Part shown: positions 7,601-47,162 of the stretch, in pieces
Layout: each line of letters begins with the position of its first letter
Numbering within the stretch: the stretch's first letter is position 1
Assembly (NCBI RefSeq): GCF_020382885.2
Contig: NC_058498.1
Coordinates: forward strand, 19,807,001-19,871,000
From: Scatophagus argus
Lineage: Eukaryota; Chordata; Actinopteri; Scatophagidae
Length of the DNA stretch: 64,000 nt
Direction: 5' to 3'
The notes under the pieces: model-generated
Databases searched by the model: none
Told to the model about the DNA's origin: nothing
What the model saw: only the letters and a program-made list of their open reading frames with translations
Translations under genes and position numbers: made by a program

Positions 7601-7617
7601 TTTTACTCATGTGTAAC

Positions 7618-7725
7618 TTAAATAAATTTAAAAAAGGGAATTAATTAATTAATTTATTGGAAGAAATATACTTTTTTAAAATAAATTCCTATAGACTGCA
7701 CCATTGAAGGACTTTTTACAGTGTG
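7618..7725 (-). repeat. Left copy of an inverted repeat pair (partner 11545-11645)
   Basis: The reverse complement of this segment matches 11545-11645 over about 100 bases with few differences. It begins CACTGTAAAAAGTCCTTC, runs through TGGTGCAGTCTATAGGAATT, and carries an AATTAATTCCC segment near the other end. The CACTG-type ends of the two copies face each other across the kinase locus, and their bodies point outward. They therefore look like two separate insertions or duplicated ends of one repeat, not the terminal repeats of an element carrying the kinase. A CACTG start would fit a CACTA/EnSpm-type terminus, but this is a guess. Confidence 0.6.
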
Positions 7726-8601: not shown

Positions 8602-8846
8602 TGTTACTTACAGTTTAACAGTGGTCTCTGTGCAGCAATCAAAAGATTTGGACATTTGGTGAAGAATTTGCAGATCCTGTTGAACAACTTCCTTTGGGAC
8701 CTGACTTCACCAAAGCCTGTTTCTTCTTCAACTATTTTATTGCTTCTGGGCTATCGCTGTAATAAGGTTAGACTACGAATTATAGGAATTAATAAAAGGA
8801 AGGAAAATAAAAGATTAAATTTGACTTATTTACTATATATAAGTAA
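8602..8846 (-). pseudogene. Deleted tandem copy of the HIPK-like kinase gene
   Basis: Positions 8602-8733 match 9246-9376, the last roughly 40 codons and stop region of the neighbouring intact kinase, with scattered substitutions. After about 75 bases, 8811-8846 matches 11511-11545, which lies about 690 bases upstream of the intact gene's start codon. The two matched blocks are in the same order as at the intact locus, so this looks like a second copy that lost nearly the whole kinase domain and promoter in one internal deletion. It cannot encode a kinase. Confidence 0.7.
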
Positions 8847-9233: not shown

Positions 9234-9252
9234 CTACTTACCATTGTGATAC

Positions 9253-10821
9253 TTACAGTTTAACAGTGGTCTCTGTGCAGCAATCAAAAGATTTGAACAT
9301 TCTGGTGAAGAATTTGCGGATCCTCTTGAACCACTTCCTTCGGGACTTGACTTCAACAAAGCCCGTTTCTTCTTCACGTAAGAGAGAGGCAGGTGGAGCT
9401 GCCTCATTTGTGCCAGGTGGTTTCTTATCAGCCCCAGGATTTGATGTTTTGCCTCTCTCACTTAAGAGAGAGACAGGTGGAGCTGCCTCATTTGTGCCAG
9501 GTGGTTTCTTATCAGCCTCAGGATTTGATGTTTTGTCCATGTCATCTGTAGCTGTGGTCCTGTCAATTTTTTCAGCAGCCGTGCATTGTGGTCCATTATC
9601 GGTGTCCTCGGCAGTTTCTTTGTTAGTTGAAATTGAGCTGTCCGAACTATTAGGGGAAGGTCCATGCCAACTAATTTCTTCGCTTGATGTTACAAAGGGC
9701 TCGAATTCAACAGATGACGTCTCCAACTGGCAGTTTTTAATGGTCTGACAGACTGATTTGACATACATGTCGTCGTTAGTGTCACAACTAAGGTGTTTCA
9801 TTGTGATGAAACGGTGACCTAAGGCTTCACTGGGGGTGATTCTCTTTTCAGGATCCACATGTAGCATGCGTCTGAGGAGGCTTAAAAAGGCCCGTGTGTC
9901 TTCATACTCATTAGTAGTCTTCTTTACTGGTCTGGCCAAGTCATCAAAGCTGTTAAACGTGTCAGAATCACTGCTACGTGGTGTGATCGCCCAACGTTTT
10001 GTAAGCTTGTATTCAGCTACTGTTTTGAATCTCCATGGAGAATCAGGGGAGTCTTTGTCCTTAATGAAATATTTCTTGGAATAAATTCCAACATTTAGCA
10101 GGTGATCTTCAGGCTGACCGTTCATCTGCATGATGACTCTCATGACCTCATATTCAGAGTATAGTGGATACAGGTGCTTGCCCAGGTACAGGAACGCTAA
10201 AACACAGCCAAGTCCCCACATATCGATGGCCTCACCCAGTGGGAGGCCCAAAATGACCTCAGGGGCCCTGTAACCATTTTTTTGAATTTTACAGCCTGTC
10301 CTCAGTGCAACAACCCTTTCAGCAAAGCCAAAATTGATCATTTTCAGCTTGAAGGGCTGCATCTTATGGTTAACCAGCATTATGTTGTCTGGCTTGATGT
10401 TTGCATGTACCATAGGTATGCTCTTTAGGGCATTCAGAGCCACTAACATCTGTTGTGCCATTACTCTGATCTCAGACAATTGCAGTGGGGACGTTATATT
10501 CACCAGATCCTCAAGACTTATGTCAAACATTTCAAATACCATACAAATATGTCCCATATAATTAAAACTGTCAAGTATCTTCAGCAAATTATGTTTGTCT
10601 GGTTCAAGCTTTTTCAGCGCTGTGAGGATGGCCTCCTCTCTTCTGCCATAGGAGGACAAGTCTCTCCGCGTAATCTTCACGGCCATCACTTCCCGAGTGC
10701 TTAATTTTCTGCATTTGGCCACTTTTCCGAAAGTCCCCTGTCCCAGGAACTTCTTTATCTGGTATTTGGTTGAGTCATTGTACAGAATGTCTTTTGGTTT
10801 AAAATTTATGTTCTCGGCCAT
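9253..10821 (-). CDS. HIPK-like protein kinase homologue, predicted pseudokinase
   Basis: An uninterrupted 522-codon frame with a good Kozak context (GAAATGG). Residues about 20-340 are a CMGC kinase domain closest to homeodomain-interacting protein kinases: glycine loop GQGTFG (27-32), lysine in AVKI (K49), YRAPE (184-188), DMWGLGC (200-206) and LGLPLGEAIDMW, a HIPK-type phrase. HIPKs have HADLKPEN and DFG; here the text is HANIKPDN (N141) and NFG (N163), so both the catalytic and the metal-binding aspartates are asparagine. Residues 430-481 contain a duplicated 28-residue unit, and the C terminus is a basic amphipathic tail (KWFKRIRKFFTRMF) ending near a CC pair, possibly membrane-binding. 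Fish carry many HIPK-like genes. The likely role is a scaffold or a decoy regulator of active HIPKs, but the sequence does not show a partner. A GTAAGT at the stop codon could instead be a splice donor. Confidence 0.85.
   Translation of the reverse strand: MAENINFKPKDILYNDSTKYQIKKFLGQGTFGKVAKCRKLSTREVMAVKITRRDLSSYGRREEAILTALKKLEPDKHNLLKILDSFNYMGHICMVFEMFDISLEDLVNITSPLQLSEIRVMAQQMLVALNALKSIPMVHANIKPDNIMLVNHKMQPFKLKMINFGFAERVVALRTGCKIQKNGYRAPEVILGLPLGEAIDMWGLGCVLAFLYLGKHLYPLYSEYEVMRVIMQMNGQPEDHLLNVGIYSKKYFIKDKDSPDSPWRFKTVAEYKLTKRWAITPRSSDSDTFNSFDDLARPVKKTTNEYEDTRAFLSLLRRMLHVDPEKRITPSEALGHRFITMKHLSCDTNDDMYVKSVCQTIKNCQLETSSVEFEPFVTSSEEISWHGPSPNSSDSSISTNKETAEDTDNGPQCTAAEKIDRTTATDDMDKTSNPEADKKPPGTNEAAPPVSLLSERGKTSNPGADKKPPGTNEAAPPASLLREEETGFVEVKSRRKWFKRIRKFFTRMFKSFDCCTETTVKL
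9380..9536 (-). repeat. 84-bp in-frame tandem duplication in the kinase tail
   Basis: Two copies with a period of 84 bases (for example AGGTGGAGCTGCCTC at 9391 and 9475) encode two 28-residue units that each contain ADKKPPGTNEAAPP. The copies differ at only a few positions, so the duplication is young. The deleted paralogue at 8602-8733 stops before this region and cannot date it. Confidence 0.9.
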
Positions 10822-11544
10822 TTCTTCAAGTTAAATGTTTCCAGTTCTATCCAACACAAACGGTATTTTTTTCTTCAAGTATGTCTTGGACAGATTCGAA
10901 CGGGCAAAGAGCTATTCTATTTATAATATTTTTACCGCATCTAGCGCTTTGATCTCAAAGAGCTTTTATCTTCAAAGCAGAAAGGACAAGTGATTTAAAA
11001 AAAAGTGGTACTTCAGTTGCAATAAAAGAAATGCTGTGGTTGGTCCCAACACGCAGCCAGCAGCTACTGAGGCAGAATGAGGGCCCAGTCACACCATAAA
11101 GTTGCACAGCAACATTCAACAGTCCAGTTACACCAAAAGCAAGAGATGTGACGAATACAAAATAGAGAGTAAAAAAAAAACAAAACCTAAGAAAGCTCAG
11201 TGAGCCCGTGAGCTCAGTTACTAATGGGACAATAAGTTTGACTCCTCCCTGTTTACACGCCATGCCTCCGTTGTAGAACAGATTAGCTGAAATTTCAGCC
11301 ACAAAAACAAAAGGCACTGGTAATGGTACTCCTGCTTTAGCGGGATGAGGTTCGATTCCCTGCAGTGTCCCAACTGTTTTGGCATTTACATGAAAGCACC
11401 ACTCAGTAAAAAGTTGCTAACTTATATCTTTTGTTTTGTGTTTTCCACACTCACCATCATATATGTATTACATGGATCGGGCAACACTTTGATCATACAA
11501 TAACATACTAAGATTAAATATGACTTACTTACTATATATAAGTA

Positions 11545-11645
11545 CACTGTAAAAAGTCCTTCAATGGTGCAGTCTATAGGAATTTATTTTAAAAAGTATA
11601 TTTCATCCAGTAAATTAATTCCCTTTTCTTTTTGAATTTACGTTA
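11545..11645 (+). repeat. Right copy of the inverted repeat pair (partner 7618-7725)
   Basis: Inverted match to 7618-7725. It begins at CACTGTAAAAAGTCCTTC directly after a block (11511-11545) that is also present at 8811-8846. Sequence from about 10822 to 11544 is the 5' flank of the kinase gene. I see no other gene there. Confidence 0.6.
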
Positions 11646-15026: not shown

Positions 15027-16037
15027 ATGGAAACCGGAAGCGAACGAAAAGTTATAATGATTGAAAAGGCGCTTGCTGATAAGCTTTTAAGGTTGCAAGC
15101 GGAACGAAAGGCAAAGCTGAACAAAGCCGCCAATATACGAAACTTAATGAAAGATCTCATCGTAAAGAGTGATAAAACAATGGTTTGTGATGCTTTGAAT
15201 GAATTAAGGGTGGTGTGTGATGATGCAAAATGTATCCATAAACAGCTGTTGGGTTTAATGCCAAGTGATGAACAAGAAAAACATGAAATATGGTTTAAAG
15301 CGAAATTTCTGTCTTTAAATGAATGTTTCCATGATGCAGAAATGTGGTTTTCAAACTTGGAAGGTAACATACAAGAAAATGTTGGTGTTACAAACAATGA
15401 GGGTAATGCAAATAAAAATGAGGTTGGTATCAATCAAAATGTCACAAGCAATGAAAACAATGCACATGCAACTGGGCTGGTGGTGGATGACATTGGCCCA
15501 GATGATAGCATTTCTAATGTGGAAAGCAAACGTTCAAGTAAAGGAAGTAGAGCCAGTGGAGGATCAAGCACTGCTTCAGCACGCATAAAAGCTGAAGCAG
15601 AAAGAGCTGCTCTTATTGCCCGTGCTTCAGCTCTTAAGGAAAGACACGCATTGGAGGAGCAGGAGCAACAATTGAGGAGGAAACGAGAACAACTTGACTT
15701 GGAAGTGGAAATGGCTGCAACAAATGCTAAGTTGGCAGTATTGCAATCCTCTAGTGTGGGAAGTGCTGGTTCAGGATCCAAAAATGCAATGGGCTCTTAC
15801 CTGGAAAATAAAAAAGGGAAAAACGGGTCTGTGGTTGTGTTAAATTCTTTGGCAAATGAATATCAGCCTGGATTGTGGAAGTCGATGCAACAACAGTGTT
15901 CAGTAAATCCAAATAAACCACTGGATGTGCGATCAAAGGAACGTGGTCAAGTTTTAAAACGGATTCTGAACATCACTACAATATGCATGACCGCCAGAAA
16001 AGCATGGGAAATTCACACCGACTTAAAGGTCAAATGA
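15027..16037 (+). pseudogene. BEL/Pao gag, N-terminal part
   Basis: Open from the ATG at 15027, although the frame itself opens at 14970. The product has a helical N-terminal region, an acidic low-complexity middle, and a strongly charged coiled-coil segment (ALKERHALEEQEQQLRRKRE) like those preceding the conserved gag domain in BEL/Pao elements. The frame ends at 16037 while homologous coding sequence continues in another frame, so a frameshift separates it from the next part. Confidence 0.7.
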
Positions 16038-16771
16038 CAACTTCTCAATTAAACAAGGAAATCCGTCAACCCCAAATCACTCATCAACTCACTCATCCTT
16101 GCATAAATCAAATTGCATCTGAGGACATACTTACCGTCATGCACAGACAAAATGAAATAACAGCTGCTTTGGTGCAACAGCAAACTGCAAGATCTCTGCC
16201 GCCGAGAGACATTCCTATATTCGAAGGGAACCCTTTGCAATACAGAGCATTCATAAAAGCATTCAAGCAAGGAGTGGAGAATAAAGCAGAAGCAGCAGAT
16301 TGTCTTTTCTATCTGGAGCAATTTACCAGAGGACAGCCACAACAACTGGTACGTAGCTGCCAGCACTTGGCTCCTGATCGCGGCTATGCAGTGGCTAAGG
16401 ACCTGCTGCAGGAGCATTTTGGAAATCAATATAAAATTGCTAATGCTTATATGGAAAAGGTTCTAGCCTGGCAGTCCATAAAGGGTGAAGATGTTAAAGC
16501 ACTCCAAGCATATTCTTTGTTTTTGCGTGGCTGTTGTAATGTAATGGAGGAATTGGAGTATATGCAAAAGTTGGATATGCCTGCAAATATGAGAGCCATT
16601 CTTGCAAAGCTGCCATACAAGTTGAGGGAGCAATGGAGATCCATTGCTTATGGAATCATGGAACAGACACAGCAGAGAGCTCGCTTTACTGACTTGGTTG
16701 TATTTGTGGAGCGTCATGTTAAAATTCTTTCTGATCCTCTGTTCGGTGACATCCAAGATCACCCGGTTTAA
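15983..16771 (+). pseudogene. BEL/Pao gag, DUF1759-type domain
   Basis: The segment contains the signature of the BEL/Pao gag domain (DUF1759): LPPRDIPIFEGNPLQYRAF, then FYLEQFTRG, AKDLLQEHFGN and YKIANAYMEKVLAWQSI, followed by LPYKLREQWR. The frame differs from the upstream gag part and overlaps it by 55 bases. It ends in a stop at 16771 shortly before the zinc-knuckle frame begins, a second break. Confidence 0.8.
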
Positions 16772-16782
16772 GTCTTATCAGG

Positions 16783-17763
16783 GTGAAAGGAAATATTGTT
16801 GCCACCACTGTAACATCTACGACCTCATCAGAAAGGGGGGAGGAGCCACCAGCAGGGCTTGGAAAGTCAGTTAAAGCAGGATGCCTTTGCTGTTCATACA
16901 GTCACACATTGGAGGAGTGTAAACCGTTTAATGAGAAAAGACACAAGGAGAAAATTCAACTTCTGAAGGAAAAGGGAGTTTGCTTTGCATGCTTATGTGA
17001 TGGTCACATGAGTCAGGAATGCGAGAGGCGCTTGACATGCAAAGTCTGTGGTCAAACTCATCCCACTGTGCTGCACATCAGTAGTCAACCACCTGCTCCA
17101 GAGCAAAAGAAACAACCAGCTTCACAACAGCTAAAGGGCCCACTCGGTAAACAATCAGCTTCTTTCCAAACATGTGGGCATACAGGGGCCGGTAAGGATG
17201 GCTGTGTTCTCCCAATTCTTCCTGTAAGAGTGAAGTCTGTGAAAGGATGTGACATTATACAAACATATGCATTTCTGGACCCTGGTAGCTCGGCCACGTT
17301 CTGCTCCGAAGATCTAATGCAGAGGCTGAATATTACAGGCAGAAGAACCAGTGTTTTGTTGAACACAATGGGCCAGGAGACTGTTGTTCCATCTTATTCC
17401 ATCACTGGTTTGGAGGTGGCTGGATTAGAGGGCAATGACTTTTATAGTCTCCCAGAGGTCTTGAGCCAACGGAAAATGCCAGTCACCACTAATAATATAG
17501 TAACAACTGAGGAACTGGATAAATGGTCTTACTTGTCGGACGTTCACATCCCACACATAAAGGCAAATGTTGATTTGTTGATAGGAACCAACGCTCCCAA
17601 ATTGCTGGAACCATGGGAGGTCATCAACAGCCACGGGAATGGCCCGTACGCTATTAAAACTGTGTTGGGATGGGTAGTTAATGGTCCACTGAGTGGAAGC
17701 AGTGGTGCCTATACTGACCTCACACTCATAAATGGCCCTTTTGTTGTGTTTTTCAGAGCTTAA
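16783..17763 (+). pseudogene. BEL/Pao zinc knuckles and aspartic protease, truncated
   Basis: Cys/His motifs of the knuckle type are visible (CLCCSYSHTLEEC, CFACLCDGHMSQEC and CKVCGQTHPTVLH). They are followed by an aspartic-protease domain of the DUF1758 type with FLDPGSSATF at the active site, and the family phrases DLLIGTNAP and TVLGWVVNGPL. The reverse transcriptase that should follow is missing: the frame runs into unrelated sequence and stops at 17763. A TTTTTCAG near the end resembles a splice acceptor but is probably incidental. Confidence 0.8.
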
Positions 17764-18986: not shown

Positions 18987-21840
18987 AGGGTAACTCTTAC
19001 ATGCAGTATACAGGAACCACTAAGTGGAGTGCCATATGAGATGCTTCAGAGTGCTGCTATTGATGTATGAACAATTTGTAGCAAATGAAGATCACAGAAA
19101 GGCCCCAGTGTGTGCCACAAGGGTCTGTTACTGGTAAATTTATCTAAACTACCTGCCTATGATTTGTATTTGTATTTTCTCTGTTCACTGATGATACAAG
19201 ACTTTTGTACACTAATACAAAATGCTAATACAGAGATGATGTAAACTTTGAAATGGTTAGCTGAGCAAACTTACTAATAATATTAAAAAGACAAGCTTCG
19301 TAATTTACAAAAAAATACTCCAAAGACTGAACAAATATTACATATTTATAAATAGTCTCTTTCATGAGTTATAATATTATATACTGTATATTAACTGTTG
19401 TTAATTGTTAGGGGTGCTACTAACTCCTTAACAAGATACTTTAAATTCAGAAAAATCATATCACTGACATAATTTCAAGTAACTATGACTGTCAAGTGTT
19501 TAGGAAATATAATAAATAAGCATATGTTTTTATGTATTGGTTCTACCTAATATCCATCCTGCTATTTTCCAAAATGTTTTAAATGTTTCAAATCAGACCT
19601 TACCTCAGTTTGTCAAAGAATTCAAATGCGCTTAAATATAGATGTCACACTCTCTTGAGTCTTCAAGACTGAGCTGAAAAAAAATCGAATTGATGCCAAG
19701 TAGTGTATTATTTGTACAGCGTATTATTTATTTGTTATTGCTATTTTAGGCTCTGGATTTAAATGATGCCATTTCTTATAGAGACCCATAACCATTATCT
19801 GTCAGGATAGATGACATGGGGAACTACATGACTCACCATTAAAAAAAATATATATTTTGGTAATTTACATGAAGTACATCACTATAAAAATAAATATACA
19901 CGCATATCATAGGCATTATATCTTTGTTATTATTTGAGTCAACTGAAAGCACCACCAAGCATTTTATTTACAGCTTTCCTAGCTTTTACTGTCTTGGGCT
20001 CTGACAATTTCATTCAATCATTTGTCTCACTTTTTTTTGTAAGCATCAGATTTGAAATAAAATCAAATGTACTCATTTCTGATAATGTTTTAAGTCTTGG
20101 CTCTATCAGTGACCACATTTCTTTATCTATGAGGACCTGGGGGGGCTGCTATAATGAGCAGCCCAAGTCAGTGTGCAGAGACAAGTATGAGCACAAAGAA
20201 CTAACACAAGATCATCCCGTGTCATTTAAATTATGCAACAGTCAGCCTGGCAAAATCATAGGAAAATCTGGTTTTAAGGGAATCTGTGGTGTCAGTTCCC
20301 AATATGCTATGGCAGGGAGAGGTGACAAGGCCCTTGTTAACCATGAGATTAGAATTTATACAACAGCTCTCCAGCATAAGAAAGCAAATTGCATGAAAAC
20401 TGCTACCCTCTGCAAAAGTATCACCAGTGAGACCCAGTCAGAGTTCAGTCTTATAAAAAGAATGAACTCCCTTAAGGACGTGTAGAGTTGACCTGTGAGC
20501 TTGTATTTTGCTGCAAAGAAATACAGGAGCAAAGGTTTCTCCAACTGTACTTGTTTTGAGCTCTATAACTCTAACAACTAACTGATTTTCTTCCTTCTTG
20601 TCATACGTGGTGCAAAATAGAATGCCCTGCATAAGTCAGACCGCTAAGGTATAGAAAGCATATTATCTTGCACAAGCTTTTGTTCATTGTGCATCTGCAC
20701 AGAGTTCACGCACATCATGAGTAAGAAACAGTTAGATGGGCTGCAGTGTGAGGCTGCCTTAGAGATACAGTACATTGCCACACTTTGCTTTGTCTCATTG
20801 AATATAGTCAAAGCTGTCATGACCTCTACAGATCCCTCGAGGATGTTCAGTTCAATTGGGTGGTCCTGATATTTACGTTTAAACTAAATCTGCTTAAATG
20901 AGGTGGACAAAATATCCTCCTTTCATGATAATGTAGTTCAATAAAAGTTCAAATAAAAACACAGAAATGAACCATGTTGAAACAAAATCACAACTGGACT
21001 CCAAAAAGGAAGATTTTAAGAAATGAAGCATTACTGGTATTTGTGTTGCACTACACTAAATCATAGAGATATTTTGATTTATTCTTGTCACTCTAAGTAT
21101 TTTTTTTTCATTCTGGCTGGATATTCTTTATCACAAAGCACACAACAGAAGGGACAATGGGAGGTGGTGAGTCATTCATGCCTGATTTTGTTTTTTGTTT
21201 TTTTCCTTGTTGCTTCTTTTATTGTTGCCTTAAAATGATTTATTTTGGTTGAGGGTCATTCTAATTCATTCTTTTTATCTCACTTTACTGTTATTCTTAG
21301 GACTCCATCTCTCTAATTAACGGGATTAAGAAAGTCAAAAATAACTCATCCGTAAAATCCCAGAGGAACAATACAAGTAAATAAGAGCTTTTCTGTCAGA
21401 CATCTAGAGTCGCAGACATCCAGTGTAACCCTGATAATCTCTGCTCAATATGTTCTCCATCTCTATGCTGGCTTCTTTTTGAGCAAAGGTTCTCTGTCAA
21501 TTTGGTAACAAAATGCATTTTCATCAAGCCAAGGAAGCGGTTTCAAAAAGTTAGCAAAAAAAAAAGATATTTTATTAAAACTGCCATTCTATATTTCTTC
21601 ACATCTATTCAAAAATGTGACTGACACTGTCAAGTTTTCCTTTGTCTCCCAGGGGAGAAAGAGAGCACCACCCTGTCAGGGCAGGCCAGCAAACAGAGAT
21701 TTAAACTCAGTGTGTCTGTGACAGCCCCAGAGAATGGGCCTGGAGGCTGTGTACTGTCTCTCACAGGTCCTCACTATGGGTGGAGCTGAGACCATTAAGC
21801 TGACTGAGAACACCCGGCCAGTATGTCCATTTACCCACCT
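18987..21840. other. Gene-poor stretch with isolated exon-like pieces
   Basis: A 183-codon open frame at 19934-20485 has no recognisable domain. An exon-like segment at 21301-21375 (acceptor TTCTTAG, donor GTAAAT) and another beginning at about 21653 (acceptor TGTCTCCCAG) are open but short and unmatched. I cannot link any of these into a gene. Confidence 0.4.
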
Positions 21841-22095
21841 GCAGACAAGCCATCAAGCCAGACAACATAATGCTAGTTAACCATAAGATTCAGCCCTTCA
21901 AGCTGAGACTTGTGGTTCATACAGTTTCCGAAATGAGGCAAGGCAACAAATTCAAAGACCAAGACTCCCCTGGTGCTCCATGGAGGATCAGTACAATACA
22001 GTCTCTATGACATACTTAAGATCTGCCCAAAAGAAAAGGATGCCACTGAGTGCAAGGACAAACAAGCCTTTTTAAGCCTCCTCAGACGCATATTA
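21841..22095 (+). pseudogene. Degraded HIPK-like kinase copy, opposite strand
   Basis: Blocks of this segment match the intact kinase gene at 9253-10821 in the same order. First is IKPDNIMLVNHKIQPFKL (about 21850-21905), then the region corresponding to DKDSPDSPWR (about 21955-21990), then AFLSLLRR (about 22068-22090). The glycine loop, activation segment and F-helix region are missing and the frame is interrupted. GCAGAC stands just before the KPDN block, where the intact gene has GCAAAC; this suggests the ancestor carried the normal catalytic aspartate, but an intervening insertion makes the alignment uncertain. Confidence 0.7.
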
Positions 22096-35182: not shown

Positions 35183-35849
35183 GAAGCACAACATGTTGCT
35201 CTGTGAAACTTATTATTGTTGGTTCACAAATGTCTCATATGCTTATATGGTCTTTCGTAACCATAAAAGAATACTGTGCCTCATGTTTTGTTATCTGATA
35301 GAATGTGCAGGGAAGGGCCTGGTTCTCCTTGCCATAAACTTTCAAGATTGCAGTTATCTGTCATACATAAAGAGGAAAACAGTGACAGTAAGACATTAAC
35401 TAGACATGTTAGTGAGTGAATGAATCACTGAATAACATCCTTGGGTAGGGACATGTTAAGCTGCACACAGCAAAATACTCTTCAGACTTTGATCAGAAGT
35501 GCTGGACACAGAGTTAATACACTGAGAGCACTCTGGATGTGAAAAGACACAAGTCACAAGATTGTCATACTGGGTGGATAAGAGTGAATACGCAGGTGAG
35601 TTTGACTTTAGTTGATTTACTGTTTGTATTATTGTATATCAGTGTGGGGTTCTTTAAATCTATTGAATTGCTGTGATGAAGAGTGATACATTTTTTATAT
35701 TTGGTTTAATTTAGTTTAGTTTTGATTGTACAAAGAGTGTTTTTCATAGAACATATTCTGCAGCTAAAAATGGATCTTATTTCTTTCTTTTTGAATGAAT
35801 TCCCCAATTGTCATTCATGATCTCTCATTTACTCTCAGGTCAGGTTGTG

Positions 35850-38800
35850 ATGGCAGTGGCACAGGAGCTGTTCCTGGCTGTTGCGCTGCTCTTCGTCTCC
35901 CTGAGGCTCCATTGCTCCTCTCCCTTACCTGGCTGTCCAGAGCCCTGCAGCTGTCAGAGAGCTTCTCTGTTGAACTGTTCTTCTTCTGGCCTTTCCCTGG
36001 TGCCCCAGCACATCCTAGACTCTGTCACCGAGCTAGACTTGTCACATAACCTGCTTGACTCTGTAACACTGGGTCAACCACATCATAACCTCAGAAATGT
36101 ATGGTTGGGAAACAACAGCATCACACACTTGTCTCTCTGTATAGAGAGAAACCCGGGAGGCCGTTATGGCAGAAGTATAAATCCCTATCACTTGAGACCT
36201 TGGAGCAGGCAGAGATGTGTATCTTGGGCGCCCTCCCTGCAGCTGCTATCTGTTGAGAGGAATCAGCTGGAGCAGCTTCCAAACGGTGAGTCAGCGTAGT
36301 GATACACCCATATATAAAACACTGAAACAGCATATGAAGTGCACAGAAGACATTGCTTCCGATGAGATGAGCATAAAGACAGAGTGTGAATGTATTAAAA
36401 CATATTTACTATCGGTGCCACTTACAAGTTCAGATAAGTGTCTTGCAAGTGTGCTCACTTGTATCTTGTATCTTTACATCACTTGTATCTTTACAAGTTC
36501 AGTTGTTATCTATATATTATAGTGAGGCCATGAATGCAGAGTTTCTATTCCTAGCTTAAACTTGGTCTACCCTTATCAGTCATATAAATAACTTAAACGA
36601 TATTTGCTAGAACAAATTATAAAATTAATAAAAGTCTTGCCTTCTAAGTACAGCACTATTAAAAACGTGCACTCATTAGGCAGAATTGCCTCTTTCAGCA
36701 TTGTATTAATGGATAATCATTACTGATTCATTTACAGAATAAACATAATGTTTACTACAACATGATGTTGTAGTTGGTTATGGTTGAGCTCATTTAATTA
36801 CTTCATATATGCGTAATTTAATCCATAACAATGTGTCACATTTATAAACAGATCAGATGTTTTGTATGTAAACTCATAGTCGAATTTAAATTATACCAGT
36901 ACAGCACTGCTGGCATATTAACTTATAATGACTAATATGCCACACCCAATATGTTCTCAGGTTAAACTGTTATATAAAATGTCTATTGTCTGGGTGTGTA
37001 CCCACAATATACAAATTAACTCTAAGGTGTGTATACAGAAATATACAAAATGCACACTTAATCAATTATTGATGGAGCTAAATCATTACTAATAAAATTG
37101 TTTTAGTATTTCCTCTGGGCATACTGTATGCTCAATATATATAATGGCTCCCAATGTTTTTGGCTCTAGACCTCTTAAAACAAAGCACTATCTTCTTGTG
37201 ACCCCTTATCACAGGTGTCAAATGTCTGTAAGTTAGAAGCTATTGCCACCAGACCAATGCATCATCTAAATAAATGTCATAATCCCAAAAAGTAAAACTA
37301 TCAAATATTTCAAGAACAAAGCAAGATCAGGGATGAGCAAATGACCTTAACTTTGTGTGTAACAGACCTTTCTGTGGTATCTTTCCTGCCCCATTTACCA
37401 TTTTGTGATTTATCTTGGGAATCCACTAGAGAATTCTGAACTCTTAGGTCAGGGATCACTGCCCTAGACAATTTCATAACACCAATGAGACACAAACGTC
37501 CCTTTTTAAAAGGGTGACTGATTGAAGGATACACATCTGATAGTGAAGTTGTACAGTCAGTATGATGCGCACCTTTAACGCCTATCTGGTGTGTCATTGA
37601 GCGATGTAGATGAGTCAGACCCCAAAGATAAGTCAATTTCATAATGTTACTGTTGGCAAAATTCAGACTAAAATATAGGCTGAGGTCTATTAGTGCATCT
37701 GTATGGTTCGGTAAATCTATTAGCGATGCATGTTGCTGTTACTGCCCTTGCATTTAATTTTAACATCTACACAAGCCCTCTTATTGACATGCTTTATCTT
37801 TAGTACTTTGTCCCTCTTAGAAATGATTAAACCTGCCAAGATAATGACACTGTACACCCTCAGCCAGTCATGGTTTTTATTGACATTCCAGTGGCTCAAA
37901 GAAAGGTGTAAACATGCAGTACAACTTTTGCATTTTCCCCTGCATCATGGCATTTCACTGCATTCCTTCAGCTTGGCTAAACACATGTGTGTTTCAAAGA
38001 AGTGCATACACTATGGTTCTTTTAAAGGCATGTGTGGACAGCCCATTTACTTAGCAAGAGCTGTGCTGACAGTCACAGACCACTTTCCTGTTTGGTATTC
38101 AGCTCACAGAACCCTCGGTGCCTCTCTAATGAAGCACAGACCAAGAGTGGCTCACTTCAGCCCAGCAATCTCAGGGAGTTTTTTTTCTGGTTAGTGAAAA
38201 GGGTGAGACAGCAGGGGAGAAAGAACACCACAGAAAAATTCTTAGCCCCTAATTAGTTATATTGGAAGTGTGTTCACAGTGAAAATAAGTCAGAAGAATG
38301 TGAATTCACATTCCAGGGAAAGGGTGTTTGATTCAGATACTTACACTACTCACTACACAGAAGTCCAGGGAGAGATTTACTGTATATTGTTTACATTATT
38401 TAATTCCGGGGCTGAAAACACTGCAGTACTGCAGACAACTTCATAGTAAAAATATACAGTTTTCACCTTGTGAGTCACACTGAGAAAGGTAAAGCAGCAC
38501 AGCACTGAGAAGAGACAGGATAACCTCTGTTATTATCATTGAAAATCTGTAACATACAAAACATTGCTCCCTTCAGTAGCCACGCCATTACAGCTACTGT
38601 TGACCTCTAAATGCAGCTCTTCTTTTCTTTAATCCAGGACTGGAAGGTAGTGAGTCGTTACAGGTTCTGCAGCTCTCCTTCAATAGGATCTCAACTCTCC
38701 AACCAGGAGACCTTGGCCGCCTTCGGCAGCTAATAGAGCTGCACCTACAACATAACCTCATCACAAGTCTCCATCCACAGATGTTCCAAGACTTAGCACA

Positions 38801-41800
38801 GCTCCGGGTAACACACATATTAATTGAACTGAAAACATGCACAGAATATTCCAACAGTAAATTCAATGGTGTCACACATTTACTCTATAATTGAAAGATA
38901 AGCCTTAAAAGCCCTTTCCAAGAAAATTTAATTTAATTTTTAATTTTGTGTTTTATTTTAGTAATCAAGTTAAATATCTCAACATCTGCTCTGTGTCCAT
39001 ATTGTGTCCCGCTCAAAGGTCCTTGATCTGAGATTCAACAAGTTGACCAGTCTCCATCCTTTGATGTACCTTTCTCTTCATAACATCGGGGCAGATGTTA
39101 GGCTGGATGGGAACAGGTGGCAGTGTGACTGCAGTATGCGCAGTCTAAGAAGACGGATGGCCTATGACAGCAGCAGAGGTCTGCAGGCCTGGAGTGTTGT
39201 GTGTGCTTCCCCCTCCATCCTCTCAGGCAGAGAACTGCTGCAGCTGGAGGAGGATGACCTCAGCTGTATTGGTGCTGAAAACAGACCTGAGCTCCACCAA
39301 GATGTGACCGTCTATAGTGGCTCTGAGATACTGCTGTCCTGCTCTGCACAAGGTAACACAGTATACACAATATTGTAAGATATTAATATGTATAATAATA
39401 CAGGTCAGCCCAACTCCATGTCAATGTTGTCTTTTTTGTAGATTCAATGTGGTGGACACCCAGTGGTCAAGCATCTGCGAGCCAAACTCAGGCTGGTCTG
39501 TTAATCAATGACATCTCAGAGAGAGACACAGGACTTTATGTGTGTGTGTCTGAAGAACATGACATTGTGTCTGTTTTTAACCTCCAAATCAGTAAAATAG
39601 AAGGTGCAAAAAGAAAAATTAGAAGTTTAACCAGAACCAGCCAACAAATAACTCTGCAAGGTCCAGCAAACAGGATAGGTCAAGAAAGGAATCAGAGAGC
39701 TATCCAGTCTAACTTGGTTCTGGCTGTGTGTCTGTCTGTTTTCATCACGTTTCTGATAGCCTTTATTCTTGGAGTCCTGGCAAGACCTTGTATAGATATT
39801 CTATGGAGAAGGGTCACCAGGAAGAAAAGTTCCTCTGAAACCTCTGTCTCATCTGCAGAACAAAGGCAGTATGACAATGAGGCCTACTGCACTGGTGGGG
39901 AACCAGAGGCAACAGGCACTCACAGGGAAAGAAGAGTCACATTTAACACTGTAGACTTTAGAGAAAACAGCAACGTACAGTATTATGATACTGTAGCCAG
40001 TGGTGTTGAGGAAAGTAACAATCAATACACTGTAATTAAATATGAAGCAGTTGCGTTTGAGAAGGATACACATGCAGCTGTAGATTCAGAAAGTGAAAAC
40101 AGCTTTCAACAGAGTCGTCCAGAGGAAACCCAGAAAGATGGCAGAGACCTCTCAGGCGTCACTGATGCAGGCCACAAACACAACATGGAGTATGAACACA
40201 TTCCAGACCCTGTTGAGCTGGACAAGAGAAGCTTGTCTTCATGCTCAGATTCTTCAATGTCTGACAAAGTACGTAATGAGGACCAAATGACCTGGAGAGG
40301 CCACATAACAACCAAGTCTAGTCAGGTGGCAGAGGACTCTCTTCAGCAGAGAGCTGATTTCTCTACAGCATCAAAAGTAGTGCAAATTTCTGCAGAGGGC
40401 AGTGAAATTGCTGGATTTTCTTCTGAGCCCTTTGCAGATTGGTCACCACATACAATGAAACCCAGCCAAATGGACCCTGATCAGTCACAAGAAAATGAAG
40501 AACAATTTGAGTTTAGTGATTCTGATAAAAGCTTTTCTCCAAGATCTAGCAGCATTTGTGGATTTTTTAATGATTCAAAACTGATTATGGCACCCACTTC
40601 ATATAAAAAGAGCAATGATATGTCAAGCTCCAGCTCATATATCAGTGAGGAAGAGCCTACAGAATACACTGTTAACTCAGACAAAGAGGAGGAGGAGGAG
40701 GAGGAGGAGGGCAGAGAAAGGAGCCACAATAAAGGGGAAGACTACACAGTCACAAGACAATTATCAGATAAAGGAGACATGCCAAGCAGCAGGATAGTTA
40801 CAGGAGAGTGGGAAACCAAGAAGAAAGTTGAACCCATGCCACGCACAAAGTGGCGTGTACCCAGTTTGGGTGTTACTAGTCACAGTGAGAGTCTGGATAC
40901 TGGAGCACCTTTAACATCTGCAGCTCATTCATCCTCTTCAAGCAGTGAGAGTGAAGCAGAAATCACAGACCTAAAAGTGGAGCTGAATACAGGCAGAGTG
41001 AATGAGGGGATCAAAATCAGAGAACCAGTAACACTGTCAACTGACCTGCATCACCAATACACCTCTCAAAAGGATATCAACGCCCCATTACCAGCCACTG
41101 ATTCAACTTCTAGTGATGAGAGTATGGATGAAACAAGAAGACCCACAATGAGGCAACAGAGAGGAGATATAGACATGGCAGGGCTTCCAGTATCTCATTC
41201 TGTAAGCCGCAAAGCCTTAAATCCACAATGGCCTCCCAATCTTGACCATATTACTCCCAACAAACGTCATAGTGATTCGTCATCTAGTAGTGAGAGTTCA
41301 GATGAGACAACAGACCAGAACGAGAAACAAGGAGAAAAGCACAGAACAGGATTTAAGTTTCAAGAATCAGTAAGTCAAGTTCCAGAAAAACAATGGCCTG
41401 CCCTAGATCTTGAGCATACCATGCGGATCAGAAGACGACTGGATATCAAAGCACCATCACCACGTCCTGATTCATCTTCTAGTAGTGATAGTGACAATGA
41501 AACACCAAACCACGTCAGTAAGCAGGACCAAGGGCAGATGCACATGGCAAGGCTTCCAAATAAAGTACCTCAAACTGTAAGACGTGACTCACCAACACAA
41601 AGGCCTGCTTTAGCTCTTGAGCATACTGCACACATCAGTAGGCATTTAGATATCACAGCACCATCAACTGACTCGGATTCATCTTCTAGCAGTGACAGTG
41701 AAGATGAAACAACAGGCCACATAAAGAAGCAGAAGCCAGGCAAGGTGGACGTTGCAGGTCTTCCATTTCAAGAATCTAAAACAGGAAGGCACGATTCAGA

Positions 41801-44800
41801 CAAAACATGGCCTACTGTAAATCTTGAGGATACCACACGCATCAAAAGGCGGTTAGATATCAAAGCACCGTCACCGGACTCTGATTCATCTTCTAGTAGT
41901 GACAGTGAGGATGGAACAACAAAGAACATAAAGAAACAAGAACAAAAAGAGGAATACATGCCAAAACTTTCAATCAAAGTTTCTCAAACTGGAAGTGATG
42001 ACCCACCAACACAATGGCCTGCCCTAGATCTTGAGCATACTACACGCATCAAGAGGCGACTGGATATCAAAGCATCATCCCCTCCTCCTGATTCATCTTC
42101 TAGTAGTGATAGTGACAATGAAACACCAAACCACGTCAGTAAGCAGGACCAAGGGCAGATGCACATGGCAAGGCTTCCAAATAAAGTACCTCAAACTGTA
42201 AGACGTGACTCACCAACACAAAGGCCTGCTTTAGCTCTTGAGCATACTGCACACATCAGTAGGCATTTAGATATCACAGCACCATCAACTGACTCGGATT
42301 CATCTTCTAGCAGTGACAGTGAAGATGAAACAACAGGCCACATAAAGAAGCAGAAGCCAGGCAAGGTGGACATTGCAGGACTTTCATTTCAAGAATCTAA
42401 AACAGGAAGGCACGATTCAGACAAAACATGGCCTACTGTAAATCTTGAGGATACCACACGCATCAAAAGGCGTTTAGATATCAAAGCACCGTCACCGGAC
42501 TCTGATTCATCTTCTAGTAGTGACAGTGAAGATGGAACAACAAAGAACATAAAGAAACAAGAACAAAAAGAGGAATACATGCCAAAACTTTCAATCAAAG
42601 TTTCTCAAACTGGAAGTGATGACCCACCAACACAATGGCCTGCCCTAGATCTTGAGCATACTACACGCATCAAGAGGCGACTGGATATCAAAGCATCATC
42701 CCCTCCTCCTGATTCATCTTCTAGTAGTGATAGTGACAATGAAACACCAAACCACGTCAGTAAGCAGGACCAAGGGCAGATGCACATGGCAAGGCTTCCA
42801 AATAAAGTACCTCAAACTGTAAGACGTGACTCACCAACACAAAGGCCTGCTTTAGCTCTTGAGCATACTGCACACATCAGTAGGCATTTAGATATCACAG
42901 CACCATCAACTGACTCGGATTCATCTTCTAGCAGTGACAGTGAAGATGAAACAACAGGCCACTTAAAGAAGCAGAAGCCAGGCAAGGTGGACATTGCAGG
43001 ACTTTCATTTCAAGAATCTAAAACAGGAAGGCACGATTCAGACAAAACATGGCCTACTGTAAATCTTGAGGATACCACACGCATCAAAAGGCGTTTAGAT
43101 ATCAAAGCACCGTCACCGGACTCTGATTCATCTTCTAGTAGTGACAGTGAAGATGGAACAACAAAGAACATAAAGAAACAAGAACAAAAAGAGGAATACA
43201 TGCCAAAACTTTCAATCAAAGTTTCTCAAACTGGAAGTGATGACCCACCAACACAATGGCCTGCCCTAGATCTTGAGCATACTACACGCATCAAGAGGCG
43301 ACTGGATATCAAAGCATCATCCCCTCCTCCTGATTCATCTTCTAGTAGTGATAGTGACAATGAAACACCAAACCATGTCAGTAAGCAGGACCAAGGGCAG
43401 ATGCACATGGCAAGGCTTCCAAATAAAGTACCTCAAACTGTAAGACGTGACTCACCAACACAAAGGCCTGCTTTAGCTCTTGAGCATACTGCGCACATCA
43501 GTAGGCATTTAGATATCACAGCACCATCAACTGACTCGGATTCATCTTCTAGCAGTGACAGTGAAGATGAAACAAAAGGCCACATAAAGAAGCAGAAGCC
43601 AGGCAAGGTGGACATTGCAGGTCTTCCATTTCAAGAATCTAAAACAGGAAGGCACGATTCAGACAAAACATGGCCTACTGTAAATCTTGAGGATACCACA
43701 CGCATCAAAAGGCGGTTAGATATCAAAGCACCGTCACCGGACTCTGATTCATCTTCTAGTAGTGACAGTGAGGATGGAACAACAAAGAACATAAAGAAAC
43801 AAGAACAAAAAGAGGAATACATGCCAAAACTTTCAATCAAAGTTTCTCAAACTGGAAGTGATGACCCACCAACACAATGGCCTGCCCTAGATCTTGAGCA
43901 TACTACACGCATCAAGAGGCGACTGGATATCAAAGCATCATCCCCTCCTCCTGATTCATCTTCTAGTAGTGATAGTGACAATGAAACACCAAACCACGTC
44001 AGTAAGCAGGACCAAGGGCAGATGCACATGGCAAGGCTTCCAAATAAAGTACCTCAAACTGTAAGACGTGACTCACCAACACAAAGGCCTGCTTTAGCTC
44101 TTGAGCATACTGCACACATCAATAGGCATTTAGATATCACAGCACCATCACCTGACTCGGATTCATCTTCTAGCAGTGACAGTGAAGATGAAACAACAGG
44201 CCACATAAAGAAGCAGAAGACAGGCAAGGTGGACATTGCAGGACTTTCATTTCAAGAATCTAAAACAGGAAGGCCCGATTCAGACAAAACATGGCCTACT
44301 GTAAATCTTGAGGGTACCACACGCATCAAAAGGCGTTTCGATATCAAAGCACCGTCACCGGACTCTGATTCATCTTCTAGTAGTGACAGTGAGGATGGAA
44401 CAACAAAGAACATAAAGAAACGAGAACAAAAAGAGGAATACATGCCAAAACTTTCAATCAAAGTTTCTCAAACTGGAAGTGATGGCCCACCAACACAATG
44501 GCCTGCCCTAGATCTTGAGCATACTACACGCATCAAGAGGCGACTGGATATCAAAGCATCATCCCCTCCTCCTGATTCATCTTCTAGTAGTGATAGTGAA
44601 GATGAAACAACAGGCCACATAAAGAAGCAGAAGCCAGGCAAGGTGGACACTGCAGGTCTTCCATTTCAAGGATCTCTAACAGGAAGGCATGATCTGGACA
44701 AAATGTGGCCTGCTCAAAATCTTGAACATACTACAAGCATGAAGAAGCAACTAGATCTCAAAGCACCATCACCCACTGCTGCTTCATCATCTAGTAGTGA

Positions 44801-47162
44801 CAGTGATGATAAAACAAAATGCCAGAATAAGAGGCCAGAGCTTGTGGGAATTGCTGGGCTTCCATTTAAAGAATCTCAAAGAGCAAATCACAATCCAGAA
44901 ACATGGTGGTCTGAAGTAGATCTTAATAATATCACTCATATAAAGAGGCGTTTGGAGATCAAAGCCCCATTGCCACCTCCTGATTCATTATTAAGCAGTG
45001 GGAGTACAAACCATACAGCAGAAGGAAAGAGAAAAGAAGTTATCAAAGTTAGTTCCTCTTCAAGCAGCTCAGATGAGCAAGAGGAGGGTATGGGAGAATT
45101 GAGCAACCCCCCAACAACAGTGGAGCCAGATCCAGACTCCAGATGGCCTCAGCTTGGGCTTAGTAATGCTTCCCGTGTGAAAAGGCGCCTGGATATCAGA
45201 GCTCGTTCACCTGAATCATCTTCCAGCAGCAATGAGAGTGATGTAGGAACTACAGACCAACCTAGCAAAATTGAGAGGGACAGAACTGATGTGGGGAAGT
45301 GGAGTATGCATGTTCCTTATGTCAACAGACGTCAAAATACCAAAGCACCAACATCACAACCAGATCTGATTCATAGTTCTGTGTCTCCCGGCTTTCAACA
45401 ATCTGAATCAAGTTCTTCAGCAAGTGAGAGTGAGAATGAGAACAGGGACCATGCTAAACTACGACCGAGAGTTTCTGCATTATCAAAGGAAACAGAAAAG
45501 AAGTTCATTAAGTCTTCAAAGATCTCGGTGATACACACTTCTCACAGGCCAAAGACAGACCACGGGATCAAATTAGAAAAGTATACAGTTATTTCAGATA
45601 ATGTTGAGGGCAAAGCAACAAGTGACAACATAAAAATGACATCAAAGGCAAACCCAGAACTTGAGTCAAGGTGGGCTATGATGAACCTTGGTATCTCCCG
45701 CTTCAGAAAGCGTCTCGAAATCACATCGCGAACAAATGAACCGCGAAATCTTCCCTCATCAAGATCTAAGCTGCCTGTTGTCACTGATGAAGAAGCATCC
45801 CAGATTCAGGCCTCTCTGTATGTAGGCCAAGCTGTAGACACCAAACTTCAATGGTCACAGAGCCAAACTGAGGAGGTGGAGAGGATGGCTGCCGGGATAG
45901 AGCACAAAACATCATCCAGTGAAAGCAGTGAGGATGAGACAATAGAGCACAGTGTTCCTGACTTGAGTCTTGGTGTCCCACGTGTTAAGAGGCGTCTGAA
46001 TGTCACAGCACCATCACCAGGGCCAAGTAGTTCCTCATCTTCCTGCAGCGAAAATGAAGTGACAGAATACACTGCAAAACAAAGCAGACATGTATCAGAT
46101 ATAACAGATGATGACTCTGTAATCACTTATAAGCGTTTAATCTTCAGACCTTCAGCACAGCTGAGTAATTCTTTTTCTTCATATACTGGCGCTGAAACAG
46201 TGACTGTTTCAAAAGAAGGTCCATCCCATAGTGTTCAAAGCAGAAATGCATCTCTTGCCCCTGGTATGAGCTTTGATGATGTGGTAAAGAAAAGGATGGA
46301 GCAGTCCAGACGCTCCACGGATATGGACCTGCCATCAAAGATAAAGTGGACTGGCATCAGTCATCAGGTGTCTGACCTTTCTATGTCCGGTATGAAGAGA
46401 AACCTAGACGTACACCAGGCTCCACCTGTAAAGCAACAACTTCCACCACTTGACTCCTCCAATAACTCCAGTGTTAAAAATGATGATAAAATAAAACAAG
46501 ACACAGGGAAAGCGGAATGGACACTAATGCATAAAAACTCAAATCTTAGTGCCAACAGTGTTTCTTTTGCATCTGGCAGAACTCTTGACAAGTCTAACAA
46601 CTCTGCTAGTGGAACAAATGAGATTTTGTGGTCTGTACCTGAGGACAGGAGGGAAAGAAAAGGCCTCAGTGCCCTAAAAACCTTGTCTTCAGACAGACGA
46701 AGGTGGGACACACAAGCTGAAAATTTAGATCAGGGTGCATCTCCTCTATTTGATTACTATGGTCCACAAGTTCACACCAGTTTCGATGATCAAAGATCTG
46801 TGGAGGACATCAAGCCCCTGGCTAAACAGCCACCAACACAATTACATCTTTCGTCCTCTTCAGTAGATAAGAGTAGAGCTACACATTTCCTCCATGATAT
46901 TCCCCGCTACAGGAGGCAGGATGTTGGAGGTATCAAACTACCACAGGAGGCTCCACCTCCTATTCCCACAACACTACCACCAGATGAGGCAGAAGAGCTT
47001 ACGTGGAGGTCTCCACGTAGCAGTGACAAACAAGAGTTGGAAGGCAACAGCCACTACCTGCAACAGAGTAGAAGTACAACGCAATCTGACCCTTCTTCAA
47101 CTATGTCGCAAAACCTGGCTGCCTATTTAGACTCCTCAAACATTAACATTAGTCATGTTTAA
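35850..47162 (+). CDS. lrrc66: LRRC66-like LRR/Ig membrane protein with giant repeat tail
   Basis: Coding exons: 35850-36285, 38638-38807, 39019-39352 and 39442-47162. They join in phase to 8661 bases or 2886 residues. A 5' untranslated exon probably ends at the donor near 35595. The order is: signal peptide (about 1-25); LRR N-cap CPEPCSC (29-35); LRRs at about 58-230 (ELDLSHNLL, VLQLSFNRI, ELHLQHNLI, VLDLRFNKL); C-cap WQCDCSMRSL; one Ig-like domain (LSCSA ... DTGLYVCV); one membrane span at about 405-427. About 2,450 cytoplasmic residues follow, rich in RIKRRLDIKAPSP and SSSSSDSED. The human protein is about 880 residues. The name rests on position between DCUN1D4 and SGCB and on the LRR-plus-span layout; I am not certain the mammalian protein has an Ig domain. 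The acidic serine runs fit casein kinase 2 sites. The function is unknown. Confidence 0.8.
41409..44927 (+). repeat. Coding higher-order repeat: 207-bp monomer, 621-bp unit
   Basis: The phrase encoding LEHT/LEDT plus RIKRRLDI starts at 41409 and recurs every 207 bases, exactly, up to 44721 (17 starts). The next one, at 44922, is 6 bases short of the period. Three monomer types alternate: A (HISRHLDITAPSTDSD), B (RIKRRLDIKAPSPDSD) and C (RIKRRLDIKASSPPPD). A-B-C units of 621 bases (207 residues) are repeated nearly identically about five times, with A starts at 41616, 42237, 42858, 43479 and 44100. Within a unit the monomers differ clearly; between units the same type differs at only a few bases. 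The last C monomer switches into A sequence (SEDETTGHIKK). Degenerate monomers continue on both sides (about 41,000-46,050). Confidence 0.95.

Follow-up and report, generated by a model that had tools for sequence, protein, structure and literature searches.

A HIPK-like kinase gene with asparagine at both catalytic aspartates belongs to a diversifying paralogue family in Scatophagus argus

A kinase-like gene that carries asparagine in place of both catalytic aspartates raises the question of whether it encodes a pseudokinase with a retained role or is simply a copy on its way to being lost. Such a gene was found in the 64,000-nucleotide stretch of Scatophagus argus DNA analysed here (hereafter the window), and the initial annotation described it as a HIPK-like pseudokinase under selection. 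The gene and the elements at its 3' end are the following:

9253..10821, minus strand: kinase-like open reading frame of 522 amino acids, with a kinase domain at approximately residues 17-345, followed by a tail of about 170 residues
9374..9541, minus strand: two tandem units of 84 bp (28 amino acids each) in the tail; the number of units differs between copies
9256..9372, minus strand: basic C-terminal module with the end FDCCTETTVKL, strongly conserved in the open copies
8602..8750, minus strand: second copy of the C-terminal module, frame-shifted and located 3' of the gene

As annotated, the frame ran from ATG to TAA through 522 codons without interruption, and the coding region of the window copy consisted of one open exon. 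Assignment to a HIPK-like kinase also stood. Pfam PF00069 matched residues 20-339 (E 1.2e-41), and the best relative of solved structure was HIPK3 (7o7i; residues 11-368, E 5.4e-80), with HIPK2 (7ncf, 6p5s; residues 11-358) as a close second. Among solved kinases the domain was thus nearest to the HIPKs, with E values of about 1e-79 for HIPK3 and HIPK2 compared with 1.2e-40 for DYRK3, the next kinase in order. A kinase fold is therefore predicted across the whole domain on the basis of the Pfam and phmmer matches. An AlphaFold2 model calculated with seven close paralogues had a pLDDT of 31.8 and was set aside, and the selected sites described below were placed by alignment to HIPK2 and HIPK3. 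Pfam, the only method applied to the HID, PEST and SQA regions of HIPKs, gave kinase models alone across the 522 residues of the window copy and left the tail (about 170 residues) unmatched.

At the 3' end, we observed by eye that the TAA stop sits within a splice-donor-like sequence, CTGTAAGTAT (window 9249-9258, minus strand), and that the downstream module copy at 8602-8750 has the same kind of end; alternative 3' exons are therefore conceivable. The 47-residue C-terminal module occurs in eight further copies, each with one TAG, at C6:18560801-18565412, C6:19242419, C6:19288608, C6:20620882 and C6:20635273. Several of them sit behind paralogues, and the module is repeated behind the copy L010.

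The positions that decide catalysis and activation are the following:

10399..10401, minus strand: codon 141 (AAC), asparagine at the catalytic-loop (HAD) aspartate, common to the paralogue L015
10333..10335, minus strand: codon 163 (AAT), asparagine at the DFG aspartate, present in the window copy only and resulting from a CpG transition
10258..10335, minus strand: activation segment, codons 163-188, where the changes found only in the window copy are concentrated

Alignment to the HIPKs placed Asn141 and Asn163 on the HAD and DFG aspartates, as the initial annotation had proposed, so that the motifs of the window copy read HAN and NFG and both HIPK-type aspartates are absent. The proposal that each asparagine is a single G-to-A change was likewise borne out against the aspartate-bearing paralogues; D163N lies in a CpG context (ATC GAT) and D141N does not (GCA GAC). 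The ATP-binding lysine K49 and the glycine-loop residues 27, 29 and 32 are present, in agreement with the annotation, as are the αC glutamate E62, K143, N146, F164, G165, E188, D200 and W202. Because both acidic residues are asparagine, catalysis has very probably been lost in the window copy, which by its sequence is a pseudokinase: a predicted kinase fold with two catalytic motifs gone. Nucleotide binding is possibly retained via K49.

A weakly or differently active kinase, in which asparagine is tolerated or nucleotide is turned over slowly, would also agree with the retention of K49, E62, K143 and N146 and with the occurrence of the same catalytic-loop asparagine, beside an intact DFG, in L015. 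We regard this alternative as improbable, since both acids are changed at once and an aspartate-to-asparagine substitution at either catalytic position is a usual kinase-dead construct. By codon logic only, A-to-I editing could in principle recode AAC and AAT to aspartate codons.

In the activation segment, the position of the activating Tyr359 of HIPK3 is occupied by Lys178, T175 is present, and the RYYR motif has lost its first arginine and kept its last (CMGC) arginine. The HIPK exons on contigs C1 and C7 of the same genome carry HADLKPEN, IDFGSAS and STYLQSRYYR. Lys178 is invariant in all seven open copies of the paralogue family; the whole family thus departs from HIPK-type activation, whether or not a copy has its catalytic acids.

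To place the window copy among its relatives, a protein search of the whole 570 Mb genome was performed, in which copy numbers are lower bounds and scores cover the best candidates. The search revealed at least eight full-length copies on two contigs, C6 (18.57-20.63 Mb) and C7 (21.61-21.64 Mb). Seven of these copies are open, and L011 is interrupted by a TGA. L016, L017 and L018 are likewise broken, and broken copies other than L011 were located at C6 19.26-19.29 Mb. Among the matches scored, the next relatives were 37-41% identical over the matched stretch and consisted of a single open frame on C14 and the canonical HIPK exons on C1 and C7; the canonical HIPK first kinase exons were 39-41% identical to the window copy, and single short exons elsewhere reached up to 67% over about 42 residues. 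A separate HIPK-like set, matched exon by exon at 40-54% identity in single exons, was observed at C22:15.00-15.32 Mb, C9:23.6 Mb and C1:26.9 Mb. The window itself contains a decayed kinase fragment of the same family, IKPDNIMLVNHKIQPFKL..., on the plus strand at 21831-21932 and on to about 22100, with 56% identity over 34 residues; it was too diverged for the residue counts and was excluded from them.

If the double asparagine were an established feature of the family, it should recur in relatives, and in this respect the paralogues largely went against the initial annotation. Asp163 was found in all ten other readable copies (L009-L018) and Asn163 in none of them, and Asp141 was found in ten of eleven (L009-L018 and the partial L052), the one exception with Asn141 being L015. 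Five of the six other open copies have HAD and DFG, and the sixth, L015, has HAN and DFG. With the aspartates present nearly throughout, the double asparagine is specific to the window copy and probably recent. L015 is open, with the catalytic loop HANIKLDN, in which codons 141 and 144 were noted, and an intact DFG. The asparagine that it has in common with the window copy at codon 141 may reflect shared ancestry, gene conversion or chance; parallel CpG mutation was ruled out because the site, GCA GAC, is not a CpG.

The privacy of the loss extends to the surrounding activation segment. We defined a window-only change as one at which the two nearest copies agree and share the base with an outgroup copy, and found 21 nonsynonymous and 2 synonymous nucleotide changes of this kind. 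Eleven of the 21 nonsynonymous changes fall in codons 163-182 (binomial p 5e-9, the stretch having been picked once the list was known). Codons 159-188 of the window copy are approximately equally distant from all six other open copies. The 108 bases around the activation segment (window 10252-10359) gave ten other genomic matches, all 81-83% identical, and no donor for the block was thus found in the assembly. Of the 5.5 synonymous differences that separate the window copy from L015, 3.5 lie in the block, and the same count applies to L012. The block may reflect fast local change or a single conversion event whose donor has been lost or was never assembled.

A rare allele or an assembly error at the locus, affecting Asn163 and perhaps the whole activation-segment block, would explain why both are private to the window copy, and near-identical flanks of several kilobases are hard to assemble. 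We consider this very unlikely: the frame is clean, and the block is absent from the ten other matches, so it is no chimaera of the copies found.

The history of the copies was examined by comparing five pairs in 200-base steps (L024 denotes the L012 copy, L027 the L015 copy, L021 the L009 copy, L022 the L010 copy and L025 the C7 copy). In four of the five pairs the flanks were mostly 98-100% identical, while the kinase exon was 84-97% identical. In particular, the window copy and L024 had flanks of 98-100% identity wherever both copies have sequence between -2600 and step -200 and between +1500 and +3600, and the exon steps from 0 to +1400 dropped to 89.5-96.5%; the comparison with L027 revealed the same pattern from -700 on, with a BLAST identity of 98.2% over -2139 to -705. 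Similarly, L021 and L024 had flanks of 98-100% (-1600 to step -200) and 99-100% (+2100 to +2600) and exon steps of 84.3-94.0% (0 to +1200), with an unalignable region of insertion differences from +1300 to +2000. L022 against L024 resembled L021, except that two of the upstream steps were at 95-96%. The fifth pair, L025 against L024, was uninformative: on the upstream side homology of the flanks ends after about 300 bases, and on the downstream side there is no flank that can be compared.

Between the L009/L010 and L012/L015 groups, exon dS was 0.08-0.09 and the flanks differed by about 1-2%, so the exons look older than their flanks: either the flanks have been homogenised or the exons resist conversion. 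Older-looking exons are what selection for differences among the copies would produce, and conversion from unsampled copies is a possible alternative. Inverted arms of about 110 bp (7614-7724 and 11544-11645; 52 bp perfect) flank the gene, and related arms lie near other copies. A transposon-borne kinase was ruled out, as the homology between copies far outruns the arms (-3748 to +4016 from the ATG in L024); to judge from this extent, the copy units look like segmental duplicates that carry a dispersed repeat.

We then asked what selection has acted on the kinase domain. Nei-Gojobori counts were obtained for the eight full copies (28 pairs), with Fisher p values calculated on rounded counts. 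The window copy and L015 differed by 64.5 nonsynonymous and 5.5 synonymous changes (dN 0.084, dS 0.026; p 0.004), the window copy and L012 by 62.5 and 5.5 (p 0.005), and L015 and L012 by 16 and 0 (p 0.02). Overall, dN exceeded dS in 26 of the 28 pairs, including all seven that involve the window copy; the exceptions, L014-L013 (dN/dS 0.73) and L010-L009 (0.54), are each the most similar pair within its group. Gene conversion among copies violates the single-tree assumption of codon models, and the pairwise counts are independent of any tree.

Codon likelihoods were calculated with our own program (GY-type model, F3x4) on two topologies, for which values are given in order. The single-ratio model M0 gave dN/dS of 2.11 and 1.95 (against 1, p 3e-5 and 8e-5), and the sites model M2a, in which 22-32% of sites had a dN/dS of 6-8, was favoured over M1a (p 4e-17 and 2e-14). 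This held for the seven open copies from residue 17 on, that is, without L011 and the first 16 residues (p 3e-15 and 5e-13), for residues 17-100 (p 1e-6 and 1e-5) and residues 101-345 (p 2e-8 and 1e-7) taken separately, without residues 159-188 (p 4e-14 and 1e-11), and for six copies without the window copy (p 2.8e-7). Residues 159-188 alone were below significance across the family (M0 1.1; M2a p 0.07). The tail at residues 346-433, which serves as a control within the gene, revealed no positive selection (dN/dS 1.1, M2a p 0.5). These results showed that the kinase domain of the family is under strong diversifying selection, with dN/dS above 1 concentrated in that domain, as expected of an arms-race family. 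It is unusual for a domain to average a dN/dS of about 2 when most of the flanking sequence is 98-100% identical, and such a pattern points to conflict.

With the first topology, 28 sites had a posterior above 0.9. They lay at residues 2-16 (five sites), 30 (glycine loop), 38, 52-68 (six sites, β3 to αC), 92, 108, 110, 166-181 (six sites), 196, 268-282 (four sites, CMGC-insert region) and 329; none fell in 111-165 or 197-267. As placed by the HIPK alignment, many of them would border the cleft and the activation segment.

On the window branch itself, dN/dS of the kinase domain was 5.4 and 4.9, values that exceed 1 with p 0.004 and 0.011, and from residue 17 on it was 4.8 and 4.3 (p 0.005 and 0.019). 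The value was not significantly different from that of the remaining branches (p 0.13 and 0.19). The excess was found in residues 101-345 (8.2 and 7.8; p 0.005 and 0.010), and residues 17-100 had none (1.3 and 1.05; p 0.8 and 0.97); without residues 159-188, the p values were 0.03 and 0.11. Selection on the window branch is therefore likely but not secure, and it is undated relative to the loss of the aspartates. A branch dN/dS above 1 argues against plain neutral decay over the branch. Thus, the dN/dS check proposed in the initial annotation gave values above 1 on this branch (4.3-5.4) and of about 2 across the family, and its claim that the changes are not random decay held in part: the branch values (p 0.004-0.019) agree with it, but the lack of excess in residues 17-100 and the p values of 0.03 and 0.11 without 159-188 do not. 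Its description of a pseudokinase under selection must also be modified. The open frame without both acids and the selection are real, but the selection is diversifying, family-wide and not tied to the catalytic loss. For the p53, interferon or HIPK-scaffold roles suggested in the initial annotation, the results gave no support.

Upstream of the gene, the following features were found:

10822..11008, minus strand: core promoter and 5' leader, kept and nearly identical in the six other open copies
11008..11009, minus strand: junction, where 0.9-1.1 kb present in the four other open C6 copies is missing

The stretch from -187 to the ATG is nearly invariant among the open copies and keeps a TATA box, TATAAATA, at 10918-10925 (-104), which is exact in five of the six other open copies. 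Beyond -187, a stretch that these other copies have is missing from the window copy; it measures 1,088 bp in L012 and L015, 907 in L010 and 914 in L009. A CRE-like sequence, TGACGTCA, located at -224/-226 in all six other open copies, is gone in the window copy and in the broken L011. Both boxes are consensus matches and hence putative elements. Through the loss of the upstream region, expression of the window copy may have been lost or changed.

These results bear on the possibility that the window copy is dying, having diversified while still a kinase, after which the upstream loss and the two asparagines disabled the gene, with no stop or frameshift acquired yet. The loss of the CRE-like box that all six other open copies have, the private D163N at a CpG, the several broken copies of the family, the decayed fragment at 21831-21932 in the same window and the lack of excess in residues 17-100 would all fit such a history. 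It is less easily reconciled with a frame still open over 522 codons, with 21 nonsynonymous to 2 synonymous window-only changes and a branch dN/dS above 1, not the neutral value of 1, over the whole domain, and with the broken copies L016-L018, which keep aspartate at both catalytic sites, so decay itself does not target those sites. We judge a dying copy to be nearly as likely as the reading that we tentatively prefer, in which the window copy has no catalytic activity, belongs to a family diversifying under conflict and acts, if expressed, by binding; even this preference falls somewhat short of an even chance.

According to the preferred reading of a binding protein, the small young family of kinases, each in one open coding exon and derived from the HIPK branch, would be in conflict with a partner that itself changes fast; the simplest candidate would be an antagonist or a substrate mimic made by a pathogen. 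Since most selected sites lie there, this partner would dock on the N-lobe, the activation segment and the CMGC-insert region. The window copy itself has lost both aspartates and has a strongly changed activation segment, in an open frame with a shortened upstream region, and these alterations would be recent. If expressed, it would bind rather than phosphorylate, as a decoy or competitor that presents the same diversified face, and it could serve as a competitor or bait for the partner responsible for the diversification of its siblings. The retained ATP site, the selection on family and branch, the contrast between exon and flanks and the kept core promoter count for such a binding role. Against it count the missing upstream region of about 1 kb with its CRE-like box, which may have silenced the gene, the frequency with which the family makes dead copies (L011, L016, L017 and L018) and the branch signal, which is absent in residues 17-100 and weak without 159-188. 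Additionally, the block at 159-188 may stem from a single gene-conversion event from a copy outside the assembly, as its 3.5 of 5.5 synonymous differences make possible, and an open frame, at such a short distance, says little about whether the gene is used.

Elsewhere in the window, frames at 15983-17763 (plus strand) matched DUF1759 above the cut-off and an aspartyl protease below it and contained Cys-rich motifs; we take them to be probably a BEL/Pao-type retroelement. A 2571-codon open frame at 39447-47162 (plus strand) has long Ser/Asp-rich repeats, as seen by eye, with all Pfam matches below the cut-off, and a frame with below-cut-off LRR matches lies upstream of it at 35808-36299.

Among known systems, HIPK1-3 are the obvious reference. 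According to the available text of one report, HIPKs have a HAD loop, an RYYR motif and an autophosphorylated activation-loop tyrosine (STY; Tyr359 in HIPK3) (PMC8595372). The window copy resembles them in the alignment of residues 11-368 to HIPK3, the HA-xxKPxN loop, the insert before αH and the last RYYR arginine. In contrast to them, it has asparagine at both acids, lysine (Lys178) for Tyr359, no first RYYR arginine and a single open coding exon that is only 39-41% identical to the canonical first kinase exons of its genome. Pseudokinases and fish HIPK expansions are each already known, separately. An expanded HIPK family linked to eye size is described for anglerfish (PMC7729161), and Hipk1 is listed among the species-unique families of marine medaka (PMC7493909); the available text of these two papers contains no sequence analysis, catalytic residues or selection test. 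Among the titles and abstract openings of the matches listed, with subscription papers and most preprints lying outside them, there was no publication on selection or catalytic loss in a HIPK-like family. One IMG/VR contig scan for viral relatives gave 97 pattern-matching stretches, none of which was confirmed. The outcome of the present analysis is a list of selected sites together with a natural set of siblings that differ in their catalytic residues, so the roles of catalysis and binding are separable.

For selection on a kinase domain, the nearest precedent appears to be PKR, the vertebrate antiviral kinase, whose kinase domain is also under positive selection. In the available text on PKR and K3L, the glycine-rich loop, the activation loop and helices αD and αG are near the antagonist or substrate and the selected sites (PMC11556786). 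Unlike in PKR, selection here acts among paralogues in one genome, the window copy is catalytically impaired, and Pfam finds a kinase domain only. For a binding role, the nearest precedent in kind would be ZED1, of the ZED1/ZRK plant pseudokinases, described in the available text as a non-catalytic immune partner that has asparagine for the catalytic aspartate and in which the DFG is imperfect and the activation loop unusual (PMC6634424). The asparagine is common to both, and the resemblance is in kind only: ZED1 belongs to an unrelated kinase family and another kingdom, and its loop is described as having no phospho-acceptors, whereas the window copy has T175. By analogy, the window copy could be an animal counterpart of ZED1/ZRK, that is, a double-asparagine pseudokinase with a remodelled activation segment, recruited from a HIPK-derived arms-race family of the fish lineage as a decoy or bait for an antagonist of its active siblings; we offer this full parallel as an unlikely but specific form of the comparison.
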